Below, in pieces: positions 5,707 through 46,294 of a DNA stretch of 47,146 nt (position 1 is the first letter of the stretch; every line of letters starts with the position of its first letter). A model generated the notes under the pieces. The model searched no databases and was not told the origin of the DNA. It saw only the letters and a list, made by a program, of their open reading frames with translations. Made by a program: the position numbers and the translations under genes. The stretch is from a virus: positions 1 to 47,146 of IMG/VR virus record IMGVR_UViG_3300036841_000075, one strand, 5' to 3'.

Positions 5707-6125
5707 CGTCCCCTCCTGACTCGTGCGAACAGACCCCTGCGACCTGCGCTCTGCGGCCCTCCCGGACCTGCTGTCCTGCCCGATGGACCCCGCAGCAGCG
5801 CCCACGCGCCGCCGATCCCGAGGCCCGTCATGAGCCACTGATCGGCGGCGGCCTTGCTCCCAGCGGCGGCCGTCAGGACCCCCCGCTGCGAGTCCCAGCC
5901 GACCGCCAGCAGGGCCAAGATCCCGAGCGCTACGAGCTTCACCGTGCGGCTCGTGCGGCTCGACAGGTAGAGCGCCAGGAGCCCGAAGACGATGAGCCCC
6001 GCCCACAGCATCGGGTTGCCGAGGATGGGGGCCAGCGCCTCCTTCCCCTTGCTCACCGTGGCCGGGTCCACGCTCGGGATCTTGCCAGTATCGACGGTCG
6101 CCTTGACCGCCAGAACCACGTTCAT
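5703..6125 (-). CDS. membrane protein next to the FtsK-like translocase
   Basis: A 140-residue protein with a soluble N-terminal region of about 35 residues, then hydrophobic segments at about 38-55, 61-76 and possibly 98-112. It ends in a very basic, glycine-rich tail (GRRGLFARVRRGR). ATG 6125 overlaps the translocase stop (ATGA), so it is the closest translational partner of the translocase. A role as membrane platform or channel for it is an inference; no family recognised. Confidence 0.62.
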   Translation of the reverse strand: MNVVLAVKATVDTGKIPSVDPATVSKGKEALAPILGNPMLWAGLIVFGLLALYLSSRTSRTVKLVALGILALLAVGWDSQRGVLTAAAGSKAAADQWLMTGLGIGGAWALLRGPSGRTAGPGGPQSAGRRGLFARVRRGR

Positions 6126-7681
6126 GCGTTCTCCTCTCCCGCCGTCTCGGCGCCTCGTACGACCTGCAGATTCGGCCCCTTGCGCTCCCCGATGGCGAGC
6201 ACGATGGCCTTGTGCCACTGGAGGGCCTCGCCGCTCGCCGGCCAGCCCAGCACGTCCCGGACGACCCGGAACGCGGACCACCCGGCGGCGAGTGCGTTTC
6301 TGACCGCTTCGGACACCGCTTCGGGAGCACTTCGGGCCGCTTCGTGAGCGTCAGAGGTCCACTTCGGGACGGGCCACTGAAGCGGTGCCGAAGCGGTAGG
6401 CGAAGTGATGGGCGAAGCGGTACCCCGGCGGAGGGCCTCGGCCCGCTTCGCTATGTCCCGAATGTCCGAGTCCGAGAGGTAGAACGCCTGGAGCCGGACG
6501 GGTGCGGCTCCCTCGTGCAGCAGGTACCCGACGCCCTTCTCGGTGGCGTCGATGCGATGAGCTGGCGCATCCTTGTCCCACCCGTCGCCGAGGATGATGT
6601 TGACCTGCGTAGGCCGCTGGCACCGCAGCGCCCAGCGGAAGACGAACTTGTTGCGCAGCTTCGGCGGCACGACGTCGTAGCGAGGCTCCTGCGTCGCTGC
6701 GATGGGGATGATGCCGGCCGCACGTCCGAGGCTCGCCAGGCGCGTCGAGCGATCGGAGAAGATCGCACCGCGGGTCGGCGAGAACCGGTCCTCCGGGTCG
6801 TCCTTCGTCTTGTCGTCGGTGAACTCGGCCAGCTCATCACAGAACCACGCCAGCGTCGGGAACTCCTCGGACGGCGCCAGAGCTCGCAGGTTGTTGCGCT
6901 GCATGAAGCGGTACCGCCGCCGCATCTCCTCGAGCAGGTTCGCCAGCACAGCGTTGGCCCGCTCCGTGTCGTCCTCGACGAACTCGGCTGCGCAGCCCCG
7001 CCATGCGTTGAGCTCGACGAGCTTGGCGTCGAACAGGTAGAGCTTCGTGAGCGGGTCGAGCGCAGCGGTGGCGACGAGCATCTGCAGCGCCGTGGACTTC
7101 CCGCCGCCGATCTCCCCGGCGAGCAGAAGGTTGCGCTCCCGCATCGTCAGGTGGACGACCGTCCCGTCCTCGGTGAAGCCGACGGGGATCGGGTCCGTGA
7201 ACACCGTGCGCTGCGCGTGCAGCAGGGGCCACGCTGCCGACTTGCCCGGAGCGACGGTCACCTTCTTCGCTGGGATCGGGTCCGGCAGCGGAGGCATCGG
7301 GATCACTACCTCCGGGTCGTCCACGTCCACCGGGTAGGCCGGCACCGGCTCCATGTGGAACGTGCTCGCCGGGATCTGCGGCACCGGCCGGTGGTTCGGC
7401 TCCACCTCGTACGCACGCACCGGCCGGGAAGGTGCAGCGTCGAGCCCCACCTTCTTCGCTGCGACCTCCCGCATGATCGGCCGGGCGTCCACGGCGGCGA
7501 AGGCGATGGCGGCCCAGATGCACGCCAGTACGAGCGTGAGCAGCGAGCCCAGCACCAGCGTGAGCACGAGGCTGTGGACCACCAGCCACACAGCCACGAA
7601 CACCAGCAGCACCGCGGGGACCGTCAGCGCCACCGGCACGTGCCGAGCGTTCGCCCTGAGCCACTGCATCGCCTTGGTCAT
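6122..7681 (-). CDS. membrane-anchored FtsK/SpoIIIE-type DNA translocase
   Basis: A 519-residue protein. Two membrane helices (about 19-38 and 41-64) precede a linker and a RecA-type motor domain. Walker A is GEIGGGKST at 189-197; Walker B is around LAWFCDELAEF (278-287); an ATQEPRYD segment follows at 329-336. The arrangement matches actinobacterial FtsK/TraB double-stranded DNA pumps. The C-terminal part after residue 420 is a repeat-coded linker, then a small helical region (about 465-500) that may bind DNA. ATG 7681 follows GAGGGAAGGG and overlaps the upstream zinc-ribbon stop. It heads an operon of small membrane proteins. The DNA it moves is unknown. Confidence 0.82.
   Translation of the reverse strand: MTKAMQWLRANARHVPVALTVPAVLLVFVAVWLVVHSLVLTLVLGSLLTLVLACIWAAIAFAAVDARPIMREVAAKKVGLDAAPSRPVRAYEVEPNHRPVPQIPASTFHMEPVPAYPVDVDDPEVVIPMPPLPDPIPAKKVTVAPGKSAAWPLLHAQRTVFTDPIPVGFTEDGTVVHLTMRERNLLLAGEIGGGKSTALQMLVATAALDPLTKLYLFDAKLVELNAWRGCAAEFVEDDTERANAVLANLLEEMRRRYRFMQRNNLRALAPSEEFPTLAWFCDELAEFTDDKTKDDPEDRFSPTRGAIFSDRSTRLASLGRAAGIIPIAATQEPRYDVVPPKLRNKFVFRWALRCQRPTQVNIILGDGWDKDAPAHRIDATEKGVGYLLHEGAAPVRLQAFYLSDSDIRDIAKRAEALRRGTASPITSPTASAPLQWPVPKWTSDAHEAARSAPEAVSEAVRNALAAGWSAFRVVRDVLGWPASGEALQWHKAIVLAIGERKGPNLQVVRGAETAGEENA
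6305..6420. repeat. head-to-head array of CGCTTCGG octamers inside the translocase gene
   Basis: Five units read CRCTTCGG on the plus strand, beginning at 6305, 6317, 6328, 6338 and 6360. Four units in the opposite orientation (YGAAGCGG-like) begin at 6378, 6389, 6401 and 6413. A stray direct unit lies at 6444. Spacings are 10-12 bases or twice that, close to one helical turn. The array encodes the linker and start of the C-terminal region of the FtsK-like protein. Such phased arrays are typical of multi-protein binding sites (iterons, parS or clt loci). Confidence 0.6.
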
Positions 7682-7767
7682 CCGCCCTTCCCTCCACACC
7701 ACGTCTTGTGCTTGCCGTTCTGCCCACCGCACTGCGGGCAGGTTCCGTGCTTGCGGTTCGGGTCCAT
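7678..7767 (-). CDS. zinc-ribbon microprotein leading the translocase operon (29 aa)
   Basis: It reads MDPNRKHGTCPQCGGQNG and has a third cysteine at residue 24: a CxxC-x10-C pattern with many His, Lys and Gly residues. ATG 7767 follows AAAGGGA, and the stop overlaps the translocase start (ATGA at 7678-7681). It is the first gene after the leftward promoter and may act as a leader or regulator. It is too short for ordinary gene calling. Confidence 0.6.
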   Translation of the reverse strand: MDPNRKHGTCPQCGGQNGKHKTWCGGKGG

Positions 7768-7797
7768 CTCGTCCCTTTCGAGTTGCGTGATGGAGAC

Positions 7798-7827
7798 AGC
7801 GTACATCCAAGTTGCAGCAGCTTTCAA
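7798..7827 (-). promoter_or_regulatory. candidate leftward promoter of the translocase/membrane operon
   Basis: On the minus strand TTGAAA (7822-7827) and TACGCT (7798-7803) are spaced by 18 bases, giving a start near 7791 and a leader of about 24 bases with a ribosome site before ATG 7767. It lies back to back with the plus-strand promoter at 7812-7840. Confidence 0.5.
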
Positions 7828-7840
7828 GCCGTGCCATGAT
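7812..7840 (+). promoter_or_regulatory. candidate rightward promoter, probably leaderless
   Basis: TTGCAG (7812-7817) and CATGAT (7835-7840) are spaced by 17 bases. The predicted start falls on or beside GTG 7848, which has no ribosome site, so the RHH gene would be made from a leaderless message, as is common in actinobacteria. It overlaps the opposing promoter, so the two may compete. Confidence 0.45.
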
Positions 7841-32857: not shown

Positions 32858-33187
32858 TGCCCCAGTGTGACGGGTTTCGTCGATTCTGGGGCCAAGGAGG
32901 GGGCTCTGAGGGCAACGTACGGGGACCGAGGGCACGCACGCGGCGAGTCAGGCCCCCCCGTACACCGTTACGCCAGATGAGTCCTGCGCCCGACAAGCTG
33001 ACCTACGGGGGCTGGCTCACACCCTCGACCAACGGTTGAGGCTGGACGCTTTCCGTCCTCTTCCCGTCTGGAAGAATTTCCCCTCATGCGCGCGCACGCG
33101 TAGCCATCTGACCTTCTATCCCTTCCTTCCCCTTCCATCCCCCATTAACTTACCTTCCATCCTTGTTGTGATGCACTAAGTGCCCTT
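32858..33187. other. 330-bp noncoding region, candidate replication origin
   Basis: No convincing gene on either strand. The right half is pyrimidine-rich on the plus strand and locally AT-richer than the genome (for example CATTAACTTA near 33142 and TTGTTGTGATG near 33163). It carries four direct CCTTCYATC units. It lies immediately downstream of the helicase gene, whose last codons carry three more units in inverted orientation. Confidence 0.5.
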
Positions 33188-33256
33188 CTATCTCTCTTCC
33201 CACCATGTCCCACCCCATCCGTTTTCGTCGATAGAAGGGATAGAAGGGTTGGAAGG
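33112..33256. repeat. iteron-like 9-mers CCTTCYATC
   Basis: Direct units lie at 33112-33120, 33131-33139, 33153-33161 and 33184-33192. Inverted units lie at 33230-33238 and 33239-33247 (GATAGAAGG), with a variant at 33248-33256 (GTTGGAAGG). The last three abut exactly and encode PSN-PSI-PSI (residues 471-479) of the helicase. GC-rich palindromic arms (GCGCGCGCACGC at about 33088-33099 and its inverse within 33266-33285) flank the whole set. Confidence 0.65.
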
Positions 33257-34666
33257 GTGTCCCCCCACGCGTGCGTGCGCGCGCGAGGCCACGGAGTACA
33301 GAAGCCGGGGCTTGCCGGAGAGCCTCGGCTCGGCAACGACGAGGGCACGCCCGGTGTCCGCCAGCGCCCGAAGGGCCTCCCCGGCGGTCTGGGGAGTCAC
33401 GTCCATGTACTCGGCCACCTGGTTGCGGTCGGCTGGCCCCAGCTCCTTGAGGCAGTCGAGATACCGCACCTGCGCCGCTGTCCTGCCCACGTCTTCCGCC
33501 GATCCGACGAGCTGCCAGGCCCGGGGCATCGTCTCGAAGTCAAGGACCAGCTCGGCGTCCTCGAGGTCCCGGCCAGTGATGGAGAGCTCCCCTCGCCGCT
33601 CGCCCTTCTTGCGGTAGAGCCCCCAGATCGTGTCTGCCACGCCCACCTTCGCCGTCGACCCCATGACCTCGGTGATGGGGTTCTTGTCGCTCATGGGCCC
33701 GTCAGGCTTGCGCAGGTGGTCTACCAGCATCATGCAGAGGTGCCGCTCCAGGGCCAGCTGCTGCAGCGGCCCGAGCGCGGCCGTCATGTCGGCGTTCTTG
33801 TCCTGGTCCGTCCGGGCCCCCAGCGCCCGGCTCACGGTGTCGATGCCGACGAGGGCCGGCTGAATCTCGTCCACCAGCTGCGTGAGGTACTCCAGCCCCC
33901 CGTCGCCGAGCGGAGGCATCCCGAACTGGAAGTGCAGGCCCTCGACGCTGTGGGGGCACTCCAGGGCTTGCAGACGCTTCGCCAGCCTCCGGTCGCCGTC
34001 CTCGAGCGCGAGGATGAGCACGGGGGCCCGCTCGAGGTGGTGCCCCAGGAACCGGCCGCCCGTCGCCAGCGCCACGGCGAGCTCGAGCAGGAGCCAGCTC
34101 TTGCCCGTCTTGGGCCTCGCCGCGAACATGCAGAGCCCCTCCGGCAGGATGTCTGGCACCAACCAGCGGGGTTCCTCGTAGACCGCCGAGAGCAGCTGCG
34201 CAGCAGACATCCGCCGCCACCCGTTGCGCGACGGTTCCGGCGCCACCAGCGTGCGCGCGAGGTGCAGCACCACCTCCGGGTCCTCACTCTCGGCCGCCTT
34301 GGCGAGCAGCTCCGAAGCGTCGAGGGCCTGCCGGCGGGCCCGGACCTGCAGCATGTCCTCAACGAGCGCCAGCCCGTGCCGGGGCGATGCCACCTCGTGT
34401 ACCAGCGTGTGCACGTAGGGCGCCACGTCCCCCGGGTCCCCCGGCCACCGCTCCCGGGCCTTGCGGCTCACCCGCAGCGCGTCGACGTCGCTCCCGAGCT
34501 CCCGCACCACCCCGAACAGGCAGCGCGTCCGCTCCGACCCGAAGTCCTCCGTCGTCAGCGCCTCGAGCGCCTTGGCGCACACCTCGGCCGACAGCATCAT
34601 CGACCCCAGCAGCCCTTCCTCGAGCGCCAGGTCGTACAGGACCGCCGCCCTGCGTGTCGGTGCCAC
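33188..34666 (-). CDS. replicative helicase: DnaB-N domain fused to RepA-like ATPase
   Basis: A 492-residue protein. Residues 10-115 resemble the DnaB N-terminal domain (LEEGLLGSMMLSAEVCAKAL). Residues 170-375 are a hexameric RecA-type motor of the RepA/AAA_25 kind: Walker A ARPKTGKS (183-190), LEDGDRRL (221-228), Walker B ALVGIDTVSR, then VDHLRKP. The C-terminal part has an HTH-like segment (DRNQVAEYMDVTPQTAGEAL). It likely unwinds phage DNA at replication. No primase or polymerase gene is visible, so host enzymes are presumed. Its last codons carry iteron-like repeats. Start GTG 34666 lacks a clear ribosome site. Confidence 0.75.
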   Translation of the reverse strand: MAPTRRAAVLYDLALEEGLLGSMMLSAEVCAKALEALTTEDFGSERTRCLFGVVRELGSDVDALRVSRKARERWPGDPGDVAPYVHTLVHEVASPRHGLALVEDMLQVRARRQALDASELLAKAAESEDPEVVLHLARTLVAPEPSRNGWRRMSAAQLLSAVYEEPRWLVPDILPEGLCMFAARPKTGKSWLLLELAVALATGGRFLGHHLERAPVLILALEDGDRRLAKRLQALECPHSVEGLHFQFGMPPLGDGGLEYLTQLVDEIQPALVGIDTVSRALGARTDQDKNADMTAALGPLQQLALERHLCMMLVDHLRKPDGPMSDKNPITEVMGSTAKVGVADTIWGLYRKKGERRGELSITGRDLEDAELVLDFETMPRAWQLVGSAEDVGRTAAQVRYLDCLKELGPADRNQVAEYMDVTPQTAGEALRALADTGRALVVAEPRLSGKPRLLYSVASRAHARVGGHPSNPSIPSIDENGWGGTWWEER

Positions 34667-34670
34667 CGGC

Positions 34671-34850
34671 CTACGCGCTGCGCTGTGTAGCGGCCCTGGC
34701 CACGTACACGTAGTCCCGGCACGCCTGCTTGACCAGATGCGTGATCGACACGTCCTGAGCAGCGGCGACGTCCTTCATCGCAGCATAGAGATCCTCCGGA
34801 AACACGATGGTGGTGCGCTGGCGCTTGGTGACAGGTCGTGGAGAGGGCAC
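34671..34850 (-). CDS. ribbon-helix-helix regulator (59 aa)
   Basis: It starts VPSPRPVTKRQRTTIVF, then PEDLYAAMKDVAAAQDVS and HLVKQACRDYV: strand-helix-helix as in Arc/ParD-type repressors. GTG 34850 follows AGGAGGA. It is the first gene of the helicase operon and ends 4 bases before the helicase start, so it may autoregulate that operon. The 130 bases before it hold its promoter region, with TGTGG/CCACA half sites but no clear hexamers. Confidence 0.68.
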   Translation of the reverse strand: MPSPRPVTKRQRTTIVFPEDLYAAMKDVAAAQDVSITHLVKQACRDYVYVARAATQRSA

Positions 34851-34982
34851 GGGATTCCTCCTAGAGTGGTGGTTGCCAGGTAGGACAATACCACACATAC
34901 ACCACCATGAATGCACATTTGATGTGGCACGGGAAGAGCAGCCACCCAGCGCGAGCGAGCCCCAGGGCCGCCTCAGCCCGGC

Positions 34983-36804: not shown

Positions 36805-37079
36805 CCGCCCCCGTCCTCGAAGCCCTGATCTTCGACGCCCTCGCCGACTCCCCCATCCTCCGGGAATGGGACGACGAGCAGTTGCACGAGGCCGCTCGTC
36901 TCACCGCCGAGGCGATCGAGGGGGCCGGCACCAAGGACATCGTCCGCACCTGGATAGAGCCCTACGACCTCGGTAGCGGGGACTACGTAGACACACTGGC
37001 CCTCGGTGTCCCGCTGGGCTCCTACCGCTACCAATACCTGCTCAGGCTGGCTCAAGCGCTCCGCGAGGTGTCCTCATGA
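36801..37079 (+). CDS. hypothetical helical protein (92 aa)
   Basis: It starts MTAPVLEALIFDALADSP and is largely helical and acidic (WDDEQLHEAARLTAEAIEG, RYQYLLRLAQALREV). It is coupled by ATGA overlaps to genes on both sides. No family recognised. Confidence 0.6.
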   Translation: MTAPVLEALIFDALADSPILREWDDEQLHEAARLTAEAIEGAGTKDIVRTWIEPYDLGSGDYVDTLALGVPLGSYRYQYLLRLAQALREVSS

Positions 37080-37246
37080 CCCTCACCGGAGTCCCCGCCC
37101 ACAACCCCGCAACTGGCGCCCGCCGCTACACCGGGGCCGAGTTCGTCATCCGCCTGCGGGAGGTCAACCGCACCAGCTCCATCGACCTCCAGCCTGCCCC
37201 CGCCAAGCCCACCACCAAACGAGCCCGAAGGAAGCCCCGCCGATGA
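37076..37246 (+). CDS. small basic protein (56 aa)
   Basis: It starts MTLTGVPAHNPATGARRYT; a helix (EFVIRLREVNR) is followed by a proline/lysine/arginine tail (KRARRKPRR) that probably contacts DNA or RNA. Both ends overlap neighbours by 4 bases, directly leading into the WhiB gene. Function unknown. Confidence 0.55.
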   Translation: MTLTGVPAHNPATGARRYTGAEFVIRLREVNRTSSIDLQPAPAKPTTKRARRKPRR

Positions 37247-37803
37247 AGCGCCCTCTCTACACCGCCAACCTCTCGAGCACCAACGACCTCCCCGACTGGC
37301 GGGCCAAGGCCCGCTGCGCCACCCTGCCCGACAAGGTCCTCGAAGCCATCTTCTGGGTCGACCAGGGCGAGTCCGTACGCGAAGCCAAGCAGACCTGCGA
37401 AGCCTGCCCCGTCCGCGCTCAATGCCTCGAATGGGCCCTCTCGCTCCCCGCCCGCCAGACCGAGTTCGGTGTCTGGGGCGGCTACAGCGGCCGGGAGCTC
37501 CGGCGCCTTCGTGCCGGAGAGGAAGTGCGTGGCCACCGCCGCCAGATCGTCGGCAAGCGCACGCTCGTCCCGGCCGAGGCCTTCCGGTCCGTCCTCGCCG
37601 CCCAGATCGGCACACGGTTCCCCAACCGCTGGCAGCTCTGCCTGTACGTCCAGCGCCACTCCGGCAGCCCAGCTACCAGCGTCGAGAGCTTCATCGCCGG
37701 CGACGGGCCCCGCGTCTCCTACGAGTGGGCCTCCGAGATCGCCCGAGCCCTCGGCTGGCACGACCTTCCCTCCCAGCTCTGGCCGGAGGTGGTGGCGGCA
37801 TGA
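37243..37803 (+). CDS. WhiB-family iron-sulphur regulator with C-terminal extension
   Basis: A 186-residue protein. The WhiB domain (residues 14-90) has all four cluster cysteines (Cys25, Cys52, Cys55, Cys61), the GVWGG turn at 76-80 and a basic RELRRLR tail. Such proteins hold a [4Fe-4S] cluster, bind the primary sigma factor and steer transcription; they are restricted to actinobacteria and their phages. About 95 extra residues follow (FRSVLAAQIGTRFPNRWQL, VSYEWASEIARALGWHDL), an HTH-like region absent from typical WhiB proteins. It probably redirects host RNA polymerase. Confidence 0.85.
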   Translation: MKRPLYTANLSSTNDLPDWRAKARCATLPDKVLEAIFWVDQGESVREAKQTCEACPVRAQCLEWALSLPARQTEFGVWGGYSGRELRRLRAGEEVRGHRRQIVGKRTLVPAEAFRSVLAAQIGTRFPNRWQLCLYVQRHSGSPATSVESFIAGDGPRVSYEWASEIARALGWHDLPSQLWPEVVAA

Positions 37804-45046: not shown

Positions 45047-45546
45047 AGCCCCGGCATCTCCTGTTCCCCGCCTACGTGGGCACCATCGTGGGGGCCAACT
45101 GGGCCATAGCTACCTTCGGCGCCGTGCCCGTCGGGTTCGGGCTCTTGGCCCCTGCAGGCGTTTACTGCGCCGGACTGGCATTCACGCTCCGGGATTTACT
45201 GCACGATGCGTTCGGCCGCCGAGCCGCAGTTATCGCCATCGGCGCAGGAGCCTTGCTGTCGGTTACGACCGGGGGGCGGCTGGCCCTCGCCAGCGGCGTT
45301 GCATTCCTGCTCAGCGAGCTGGCGGACCTCGCCGTCTATGAGCCCCTGCGGCGGCGCGGATGGCTCCGTGCGGTGTTCGCAAGCAACGTGGTTGGGCTGA
45401 TCGTGGACTCGGCTCTGTTCCTCTGGTTGGCATTCGGAAGCCTCTCGTTTCTCGCCGGTCAGGTCGTCGGCAAGACCTGGATGACCCTTCTCGCCATCGT
45501 CGTACTGGGGGCACTGCGCCGTGGAGTTTCTGCTCGGTACGCATGA
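45043..45546 (+). CDS. VUT-family transporter (YhhQ-like, 7-deazaguanine precursor uptake)
   Basis: A 167-residue membrane protein with five to six helices. The family signature is visible: TIVGANWAIATFG near the start, then CAGLAFTLRDLLHDAFGRR, AFLLSELADLAVYEPLRRR and VGLIVDSALFLWLAFG. YhhQ/VUT proteins import preQ0 or preQ1, bases for queuosine. Its 3' end overlaps the DpdA-like gene by 26 bases, so the two are almost certainly made together. The inferred job is to bring a deazaguanine base into the infected cell for DNA modification. Substrate is inferred, not seen. Confidence 0.78.
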   Translation: MKPRHLLFPAYVGTIVGANWAIATFGAVPVGFGLLAPAGVYCAGLAFTLRDLLHDAFGRRAAVIAIGAGALLSVTTGGRLALASGVAFLLSELADLAVYEPLRRRGWLRAVFASNVVGLIVDSALFLWLAFGSLSFLAGQVVGKTWMTLLAIVVLGALRRGVSARYA

Positions 45547-46294
45547 GGTGTCGTGGCTGAGAAGAACAACCGTTCCTCTCTTCGTCAGCCACCGGCGTTT
45601 GGCCAAGCGCAAGTATTTGCCCCGTGCCTTAGGACCATGGGCGCTCGACAGCGGAGGCTACACGGAGCTCAATATGCACGGCCAGTGGGTCACGACAGAA
45701 CCCGAATACGTGGACGCGGTCCGGCGCTACACCGCTGACATTGGCGTTTTGCAGTGGGCTGCGCCGATGGACTGGATGTGCGAACCGTGGGTGGTAAGCA
45801 AGACAGGCTTTAGTGTTGTTGAGCACCAGCACCGGACTGTGGACAACTACTGCCGGCTGCGCCAGATGGCCCCCGATCTGCCTTTCATTCCCGTGCTGCA
45901 GGGTTACGAGCGGGCCGACTATGACCGCTGCATCGGGTTCTACGAAGAGGCTGGCGTTGACCTCTGGAGGGTGCCTCTGGTGGGACTCGGGACCATGTGC
46001 CGGCGCCAAGGCGAGAAGGACATCGAGCGCATCGTGACCGACCTGGCCCTCCTGAATCTGCCGCTTCACGGGTTCGGTATAAAGATCCGGGGGCTCAAGC
46101 AGTACGGGTGGGCGCTTGTCTCGGCCGATTCGATGGCATGGTCGTTGCGAGCCCGCCGACACGAGGCCCCCATGCTTCCCGGCTGCACCCACAAGACGTG
46201 TGCCAACTGCTTCGACTACGCCCACCATTGGCGTCTGCACGACGTCCTGCCCACGCTCGTCAACCAGCAACCCCGGATGCTCCGGGCCGGATAA
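45521..46294 (+). CDS. dpdA: DpdA-family DNA-guanine transglycosylase (deazapurine insertion)
   Basis: A 257-residue relative of tRNA-guanine transglycosylase. It has ALDSGGYTEL with Asp43, then WAAPMDWMCEP (80-89), FIPVLQGYERADYDR, VGLGTMCRRQ (154-163), LHGFGIK (182-188) and VSADSMAWS (200-208). A zinc-type cluster follows (Cys222, Cys227, Cys230, then His). This order matches phage DpdA proteins, which exchange guanine in DNA for a 7-deazaguanine such as preQ0 and so resist restriction. No synthesis genes (folE, queD, queE, queC) are present; the overlapping VUT transporter suggests salvage. GTG 45521 is the only reasonable start. Confidence 0.82.
   Translation: MEFLLGTHEVSWLRRTTVPLFVSHRRLAKRKYLPRALGPWALDSGGYTELNMHGQWVTTEPEYVDAVRRYTADIGVLQWAAPMDWMCEPWVVSKTGFSVVEHQHRTVDNYCRLRQMAPDLPFIPVLQGYERADYDRCIGFYEEAGVDLWRVPLVGLGTMCRRQGEKDIERIVTDLALLNLPLHGFGIKIRGLKQYGWALVSADSMAWSLRARRHEAPMLPGCTHKTCANCFDYAHHWRLHDVLPTLVNQQPRMLRAG

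Follow-up and report, generated by a model that had tools for sequence, protein, structure and literature searches.

The window analysed here, that is, the whole stretch of 47,146 nt, is the IMG/VR virus record IMGVR_UViG_3300036841_000075. Genes for a large terminase subunit and for a major capsid protein of the SU10 type set it apart from phage-inducible islands that lack a full structural set. Its minus strand carries a gene for a replicative helicase whose end lies within a cluster of short opposed repeats. The features of this locus are listed below.

33088 to 33101, + strand: left GC-rich arm GCGCGCGCACGCGT, also beside the array of the relative L001, not general
33112 to 33120, + strand: iteron D1, CCTTCTATC
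33121 to 33129, + strand: degenerate iteron CCTTCCTTC, one mismatch
33131 to 33139, + strand: iteron D2, CCTTCCATC
33143 to 33242, no strand: lowest-GC 100 bp of the contig (47% versus 69% overall), candidate unwinding region
33153 to 33161, + strand: iteron D3, CCTTCCATC
33184 to 33192, + strand: iteron D4, CCTTCTATC, holding the helicase stop codon TAG (33188-33190)
33188 to 34666, - strand: RepA/DnaB-type replicative helicase gene (P0001, 492 aa), from Pfam, AlphaFold and Foldseek
33230 to 33238, - strand: iteron R3, CCTTCTATC, within helicase codons, adjoining R2
33239 to 33247, - strand: iteron R2, CCTTCTATC, within helicase codons
33248 to 33256, - strand: iteron R1, CCTTCCAAC, one mismatch, within helicase codons
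33266 to 33285, + strand: right GC-rich arm CACGCGTGCGTGCGCGCGCG, alternating purine/pyrimidine, within helicase codons
33290 to 33478, - strand: winged-helix codons (residues 397-459, conserved Tyr457), proposed iteron-binding domain
34671 to 34916, - strand: small ribbon-helix-helix (CopG/ParG-like) protein directly upstream of the helicase, from Pfam matches below curated cut-offs

Three domains can be distinguished in the helicase: a DnaB-N-like domain (about residues 11-96; Pfam DnaB_N, E 6e-6, a weak match), an AAA_25 RecA-fold ATPase (residues 159-322; Pfam, E 1.4e-29) and a winged helix (residues 397-459), where Pfam gives a sub-threshold match to a MarR-type helix-turn-helix (residues 396-439). 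In an AlphaFold model of the helicase, built on 30 window and locus proteins, the ATPase core and the winged helix are mostly above 90 pLDDT; the repeat-encoded tail (residues 463-492) is predicted to be disordered, with residues 463-486 and 490-492 below 50 pLDDT. Foldseek matched the helicase to DnaB (E 7e-12) and to RSF1010 RepA (E 6e-11, TM about 0.7 normalised to RepA), and a profile of the helicase family also matched RSF1010 RepA (1g8y/1nlf, E 1.4e-11), several winged-helix proteins at the C-terminus and, weakly, Zalpha folds at the winged helix. No D5_N or DUF927 match was found for this helicase, which matches AAA_25, DnaB_C and RepA instead. According to these models, the protein is a RecA-fold hexameric helicase core plus a C-terminal winged helix, in agreement with the original prediction of a RepA-type helicase with a C-terminal helix-turn-helix. 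The ribbon-helix-helix protein encoded upstream is a possible regulator, of copy number or of transcription.

Elsewhere on the contig, matches to a WhiB-like regulator (37006-37803, + strand) and to a queuine tRNA-ribosyltransferase (45521-46294, + strand) point to an actinobacterial host and to queuosine-related modification. A second opposed array, made of CCGCTTCGG and near copies, is found at 6304-6451 inside an FtsK/SpoIIIE-like gene (6122-7837, - strand), where 7-8 copies follow each other in 150 bp at steps of about 12 nt, in the part of the gene that codes for the linker joining the FtsK-like motor domain to a short C-terminal segment. It may give the FtsK-like motor its address, as transfer sites do in Streptomyces TraB plasmids.

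The repeats at the end of the helicase gene are confined to this one place. Exact copies of CCTTCYATC occur six times in the whole contig, all within 33112-33247 (+ strand starts at 33112, 33131, 33153 and 33184; - strand starts at 33230 and 33239), compared with an expectation of 0.48 per whole 47 kb, and six copies were reached in none of 100 shuffles. With two near copies of one mismatch each, at 33121-33129 (+ strand) and 33248-33256 (- strand), the array consists of six exact and two near copies over 33112-33256. The set of seven 9-mers originally described is thus real, with six exact copies and a seventh, at 33248-33256, that carries a mismatch. The copies form two opposed sets that are 37 bp apart: the three inverted ones adjoin at exactly 9 nt, while the direct ones have start-to-start distances of 9, 10, 22 and 31 nt. 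Read in the sense of the helicase gene, CCTTCCAAC CCTTCTATC CCTTCTATC (33256-33230) lie within the last codons and, past the 37 bp, are followed by GATAGAAGG (33192-33184), GATGGAAGG (33161), GATGGAAGG (33139), the degenerate GAAGGAAGG (33129) and finally GATAGAAGG (33120-33112). That three inverted copies abut within helicase codons was therefore correctly described, but the four direct copies are not all in noncoding DNA, since D4 contains the stop codon. The in-frame copies encode the tripeptide repeats PSN-PSI-PSI. As for the AT-richer stretch noted between the repeats, it turned out to be the minimum of the entire contig, enclosed by the two opposed sets: the lowest-GC segments of 30, 40, 60 and 100 bp all begin at 33142-33144, that of 40 bp being 33142-33183. 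The GC-skew inflection sought as an origin signal is ambiguous: the cumulative skew has its maximum at 32952, with a sign opposite to the one that origins usually show, and it is confounded by a change of gene orientation close by.

A close relative, L001 (IMG/VR contig 3300036861_000374), encodes a Prim-Pol/AAA_25 fusion that is 54% identical to the window helicase from residue 128 on. It keeps repeats in the same place with a diverged word: AATCTTCTAAA ... TTTAGAAGAT ... ATTTAGAAGG, opposed, of the TTTAGAAG type and past the stop codon. Both proteins end with a W-G-WW-E tail, before which the window repeats lie in frame, and the two loci have a common 3' flank (TAGAAGGTCA.A.GGCT ... GCGCGCATGAGGG). 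Searches by sequence pattern found little else: TAGAAGGTCANANGGCT gave 77 matches, of which the sole genuine one (L145) is on the same contig as L001, and an exact 18-mer of the window repeat gave three matches in viral contigs, all in unrelated genes and attributable to chance. A first scan of genome contigs with a narrow two-sequence alignment gave no matches.

Distant relatives were surveyed in two sets, with a total of 178 helicase clusters below 70% identity. The discovery set comprised 92 AAA_25 helicase loci from viral contigs and from named phages and plasmids, grouped into 76 clusters at 70% identity. The region from -600 to +300 of each stop codon was scored for exact 7-mer copies, tandem pairs at 8-11 nt and presence of both orientations, and other 900-bp stretches of the same loci served as controls. 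A score of at least 7 was reached by 39 of the 76 clusters, compared with 10 of 603 control stretches and none of 228 shuffles; by a simpler statistic, at least five copies lay near the stop codon in 40 of 78 loci, compared with 2 of 780 random anchors. The test was then applied unchanged to an independent set, obtained with a different query and a second alignment from viral contigs and GTDB genomes (160 loci, 102 new clusters). There, 56 of the 102 clusters (27/42 viral and 29/60 cellular) had arrays, compared with 6 of 881 control stretches, and all 47 arrays with at least five copies had both orientations. The words are specific to each element (GAGTGAA, CGTGACA, ACCATTGA, GGTAACA, CGGACAC and others), the number of opposed copies goes up to 16 per array, and the spacer is AT-richer than its locus in 28 of 33 arrays. 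According to record titles, the bacterial hosts with arrays include Alphaproteobacteria, Actinomycetota, Bacillota, Chloroflexi, Planctomycetes and the Vampirovibrio lineage. The arrays expected in relatives of the window phage are thus found, with other words, in L001 as well as in both survey sets.

Around half of the clusters did not reach the threshold for exact words. Nor did the window, whose word alternates C and T and therefore scores no more than 6 by this strict measure. When one mismatch is allowed, nine copies are found in 230 bp of the window, a number reached by 12 of 680 control stretches. More generally, a mismatch-tolerant count separated the stretches following the last conserved tyrosine of the winged helix from control stretches with an AUC of 0.83, and about 10 of 15 'negative' winged-helix loci had degenerate opposed repeats right after this tyrosine, as judged by eye and after the fact. 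The winged-helix HMM score did not differ significantly between array-bearing and array-less helicases (P=0.19), partly because of a gut-phage winged-helix subfamily and because exact words miss degenerate arrays. Indeed, gut-phage helicases with ACCATTGA arrays have a C-terminal domain that the winged-helix profile misses, and its model (a helix-strand-helix-helix-helix-strand-strand unit, around 89 pLDDT) is consistent with another winged helix. No array was found for the AAA_25 RepA-type proteins of Gordonia phage Agatha and of Microbacterium phages Juanyo and HerculesXL, and some RecA-like or RepA-like proteins of Gordonia and Microbacterium phages have neither winged helix nor array. Relatives that have the helicase and lack the repeats, the finding named as speaking against the original prediction, do exist in several cases, mostly helicases without this winged helix; most distant relatives have arrays.

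The position of the arrays is tied to the winged helix more closely than to the end of the gene. Arrays start a median of 29 bp after the last conserved winged-helix tyrosine in the first set (IQR 13-45, n=39) and of 25 bp in the second (IQR 10-46, n=54), while the distance from this tyrosine to the stop codon varies between 9 and about 700 nt. The scatter of the array start (MAD) in the second set is 17.5 bp relative to the tyrosine and 62.5 bp relative to the stop codon. Among 95 arrays, 34 straddle the stop codon as in the window, 28 are contained entirely in the gene and 33 are wholly past it. In-gene arrays encode tripeptide repeats, for example SIHSIHSIHSIH in the C. bescii plasmid pATHE01. 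With the word chosen by copy number in the second set, the most frequent same-strand spacing is 9 nt in coding (42) and in noncoding DNA (45), the noncoding runners-up being 8 (18), 12 (9) and 10 nt (6). A codon artefact was rejected as the source of this period, as it is equally strong past stop codons. In five loci (L038, L042, L048, L052 and L053), arrays or palindromic remnants were seen between the winged helix and a further C-terminal segment with a CxxC motif, e.g. TPSGWTCDACYPE, so that iteron DNA encodes an inter-domain linker.

The GC-rich arms that were said to bracket the array do exist in the window, where 33088-33101 and 33267-33280 (14 nt) are 93% complementary, but they recur in few loci. 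Alternating GC runs were enriched beside arrays in the discovery set only; in the second set they numbered 7 per 117 kb near arrays and 19 per 525 kb elsewhere, which is no enrichment, and we therefore do not claim them as a general feature. Long alternating CG runs bracket or flank the arrays of a few high-GC elements, namely L026 (at -17 and +226 of the helicase stop codon), L001 (4214-4231) and the window. To connect such runs with the weak matches of the winged helix to Zalpha folds would be speculation.

If the winged helix reads the array, the two should change together. Pairwise similarities of the winged helix (in the first set, of the C-terminal region), of the ATPase core and of the words were compared by partial Mantel tests. 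Winged-helix similarity predicted word similarity given the core in the first set (partial r 0.13, 2/1000 permutations) and in the second (0.14, 4/1000), whereas core similarity given the winged helix did not do so significantly (66/1000 and 190/1000 permutations reached the observed value). Individual pairs illustrate this: L287 and L202 have similar cores (0.77), dissimilar winged helices (0.39) and unrelated words, while L330 and L308 have a core similarity of only 0.47, a winged-helix similarity of 0.57 and the common word CGATAAGAA; L284 and L212, with the common word CGATAACC, show a pattern like that of L330 and L308. These comparisons suggest in both sets that the word follows the winged helix rather than the ATPase core, which we take as support and not as proof, since the effect is small.

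Arrays of this type were also found on two named elements. In the C. bescii plasmid pATHE01 (L169; 8.3 kb), 11 copies of GAGTGAA, mostly at a pitch of 9 nt, occupy 6382-6555, directly after the winged helix of a Prim-Pol/AAA_25 protein and inside its gene, where they encode an (SIH)n tail; this gene is the sole annotated replication-type gene of the plasmid. A CopG-family protein is also encoded on pATHE01, a plasmid from a thermophile amenable to laboratory work; its GC skew gave no usable signal. In Rhizobium phage 16-3 (L337), at least ten opposed copies of CGTGACA lie in a 357-bp gap (56250-56606) after p101, and this gap is a candidate for the origin of the phage.

Several known replication systems resemble the window in part. 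SaPI Rep and SCCmec Cch2 use their C-terminal domain to bind iterons that lie immediately 3' of the helicase gene, and may do so as two hexamers (PMC7581432). In the PICI origin, for which there is a plasmid test in E. coli, two iteron sets flank an AT-rich region (PMC6092414, which also mentions P4 alpha and its origin). The window has the same layout, with short iterons at the 3' end of the helicase gene, here straddling the stop codon, and two sets around the AT minimum of the contig; the counterpart of the iteron-binding C-terminal domain is predicted from model and sequence. In contrast, the SaPI/PICI and Cch2 ATPases are of the DUF927 or D5_N/Primase_Cterm types and that of the window is an AAA_25/RepA-DnaB RecA-fold with a winged helix, so that a machine of the same kind would here be driven by another motor. 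Moreover, the present arrays are tied to winged-helix codons and may sit inside the gene. The anchoring to these codons and a 9-nt pitch independent of the reading frame are what our sequence comparison would add to the papers on island origins. RSF1010 RepA has the same helicase fold as the window protein; to our knowledge, it is not fused to a DNA-binding domain and depends on RepC together with longer oriV iterons (about 20 bp), unlike the 9-mers of the window. In phage lambda, iterons lie inside the gene of the initiator O, in the linker beside its DNA-binding domain, much as three copies in the window code for the tail that follows the winged helix directly. Lambda O is an initiator without ATPase and not a helicase, needs P to load the host DnaB and has longer iterons, whereas the window protein itself carries a helicase ATPase and is proposed to be initiator and helicase in one. 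P4 alpha likewise combines a helicase with an iteron-binding C-terminal domain, as proposed here; it belongs to a different helicase superfamily and P4 has two separated sites (ori and crr). In the open-access literature, we found no paper tying RepA-like helicases to iterons.

Considering this evidence together, we think it likely that the repeats are the replication origin of the phage and that the adjoining helicase, which would be its initiator, binds them in cis through its winged helix. The original prediction of an iteron origin read by the helicase's own C-terminal helix-turn-helix is thereby supported by a comparative test at the level of sequence. Several winged helices would dock on the repeats at intervals of 9 bp, probably with one helicase assembly per repeat set, and since the two sets are opposed, we propose that two rings are placed facing opposite directions. 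The AT-rich middle would then melt, each ring would load on one strand with no separate loader and bidirectional replication would start. The two facing rings and the dispensable loader are steps that we infer. As the tail that the array encodes or directly follows is disordered, the DNA would be free to evolve as iterons and the protein would tolerate the tripeptide repeats, and because the array lies beside or in the initiator gene, that gene and its target would move together as a cassette.

The array could instead be an origin that is read by another protein, such as a separate initiator or the host DnaA, with the helicase merely recruited. RSF1010-type plasmids divide the work in this manner between the initiator RepC and the helicase RepA, and the ribbon-helix-helix protein encoded just upstream of the window helicase could be such a reader. 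We consider this division unlikely, considering that in two sets the words go with the winged helix of the helicase more than with its core, that arrays adjoin winged-helix codons, that no DnaA boxes were found near the window array and that pATHE01 has no other annotated replication gene. It appears even less probable that the helicase regulates transcription of its own or a downstream operon by way of the array, which would then be an operator or other regulatory site: winged helices are commonly repressors and a third of the arrays lie wholly past the stop codon (33/95), but arrays sit at the 3' end of genes and often wholly inside (28/95), no promoter-like site was found near the window array and as many as 16 opposed copies enclosing an AT-rich stretch are what an origin looks like.

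Partition systems also use opposed repeat arrays and the contig has its second one inside the FtsK-like gene, so that a partition, packaging or recombination site (centromere-like) that just lies beside the helicase has to be considered; it is very improbable, as arrays go with the helicase and its winged helix in phages, plasmids and integrated elements alike and as the ParG-like match is weak. Finally, what we see in the DNA could reflect a protein or an RNA, either a low-complexity tail of tripeptide repeats, 9 nt being three codons as in the (SIH)n tail of pATHE01, or a 3' hairpin or terminator, the single-stranded DNA of the window element folding better than shuffled sequences do (z -5.1). 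To this we give the least credence of all, since 33 of 95 arrays are wholly past the stop codon and 34 straddle it, and since neither a T-run terminator nor an Rfam match was found for the window element. An origin read by the winged helix of the adjoining helicase is therefore the explanation that we retain.

Beyond this phage, we lean slightly towards the existence of a very widespread class of phages, plasmids and integrated elements, spread over many phyla, in which a RecA-fold helicase would be its own initiator, with an array of 9-bp pitch, a word that co-changes with the winged helix and two rings that need no loader. If this class is real, the origins of phages and plasmids with RepA/AAA_25 or Prim-Pol-AAA_25 helicases would be locatable from sequence alone, about 25 bp after the last conserved tyrosine of the winged helix. 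The self-loading initiator helicases, so far described for other ATPase types, would also gain a RecA-fold class. It has been stated in print that no bacterial replicon other than the islands has their origin layout, and our survey weakens this. As the arrays start after the winged helix or inside the codons that follow it, origin and initiator would form a portable, self-addressed cassette, and the element-specific words suggest a compatibility code.
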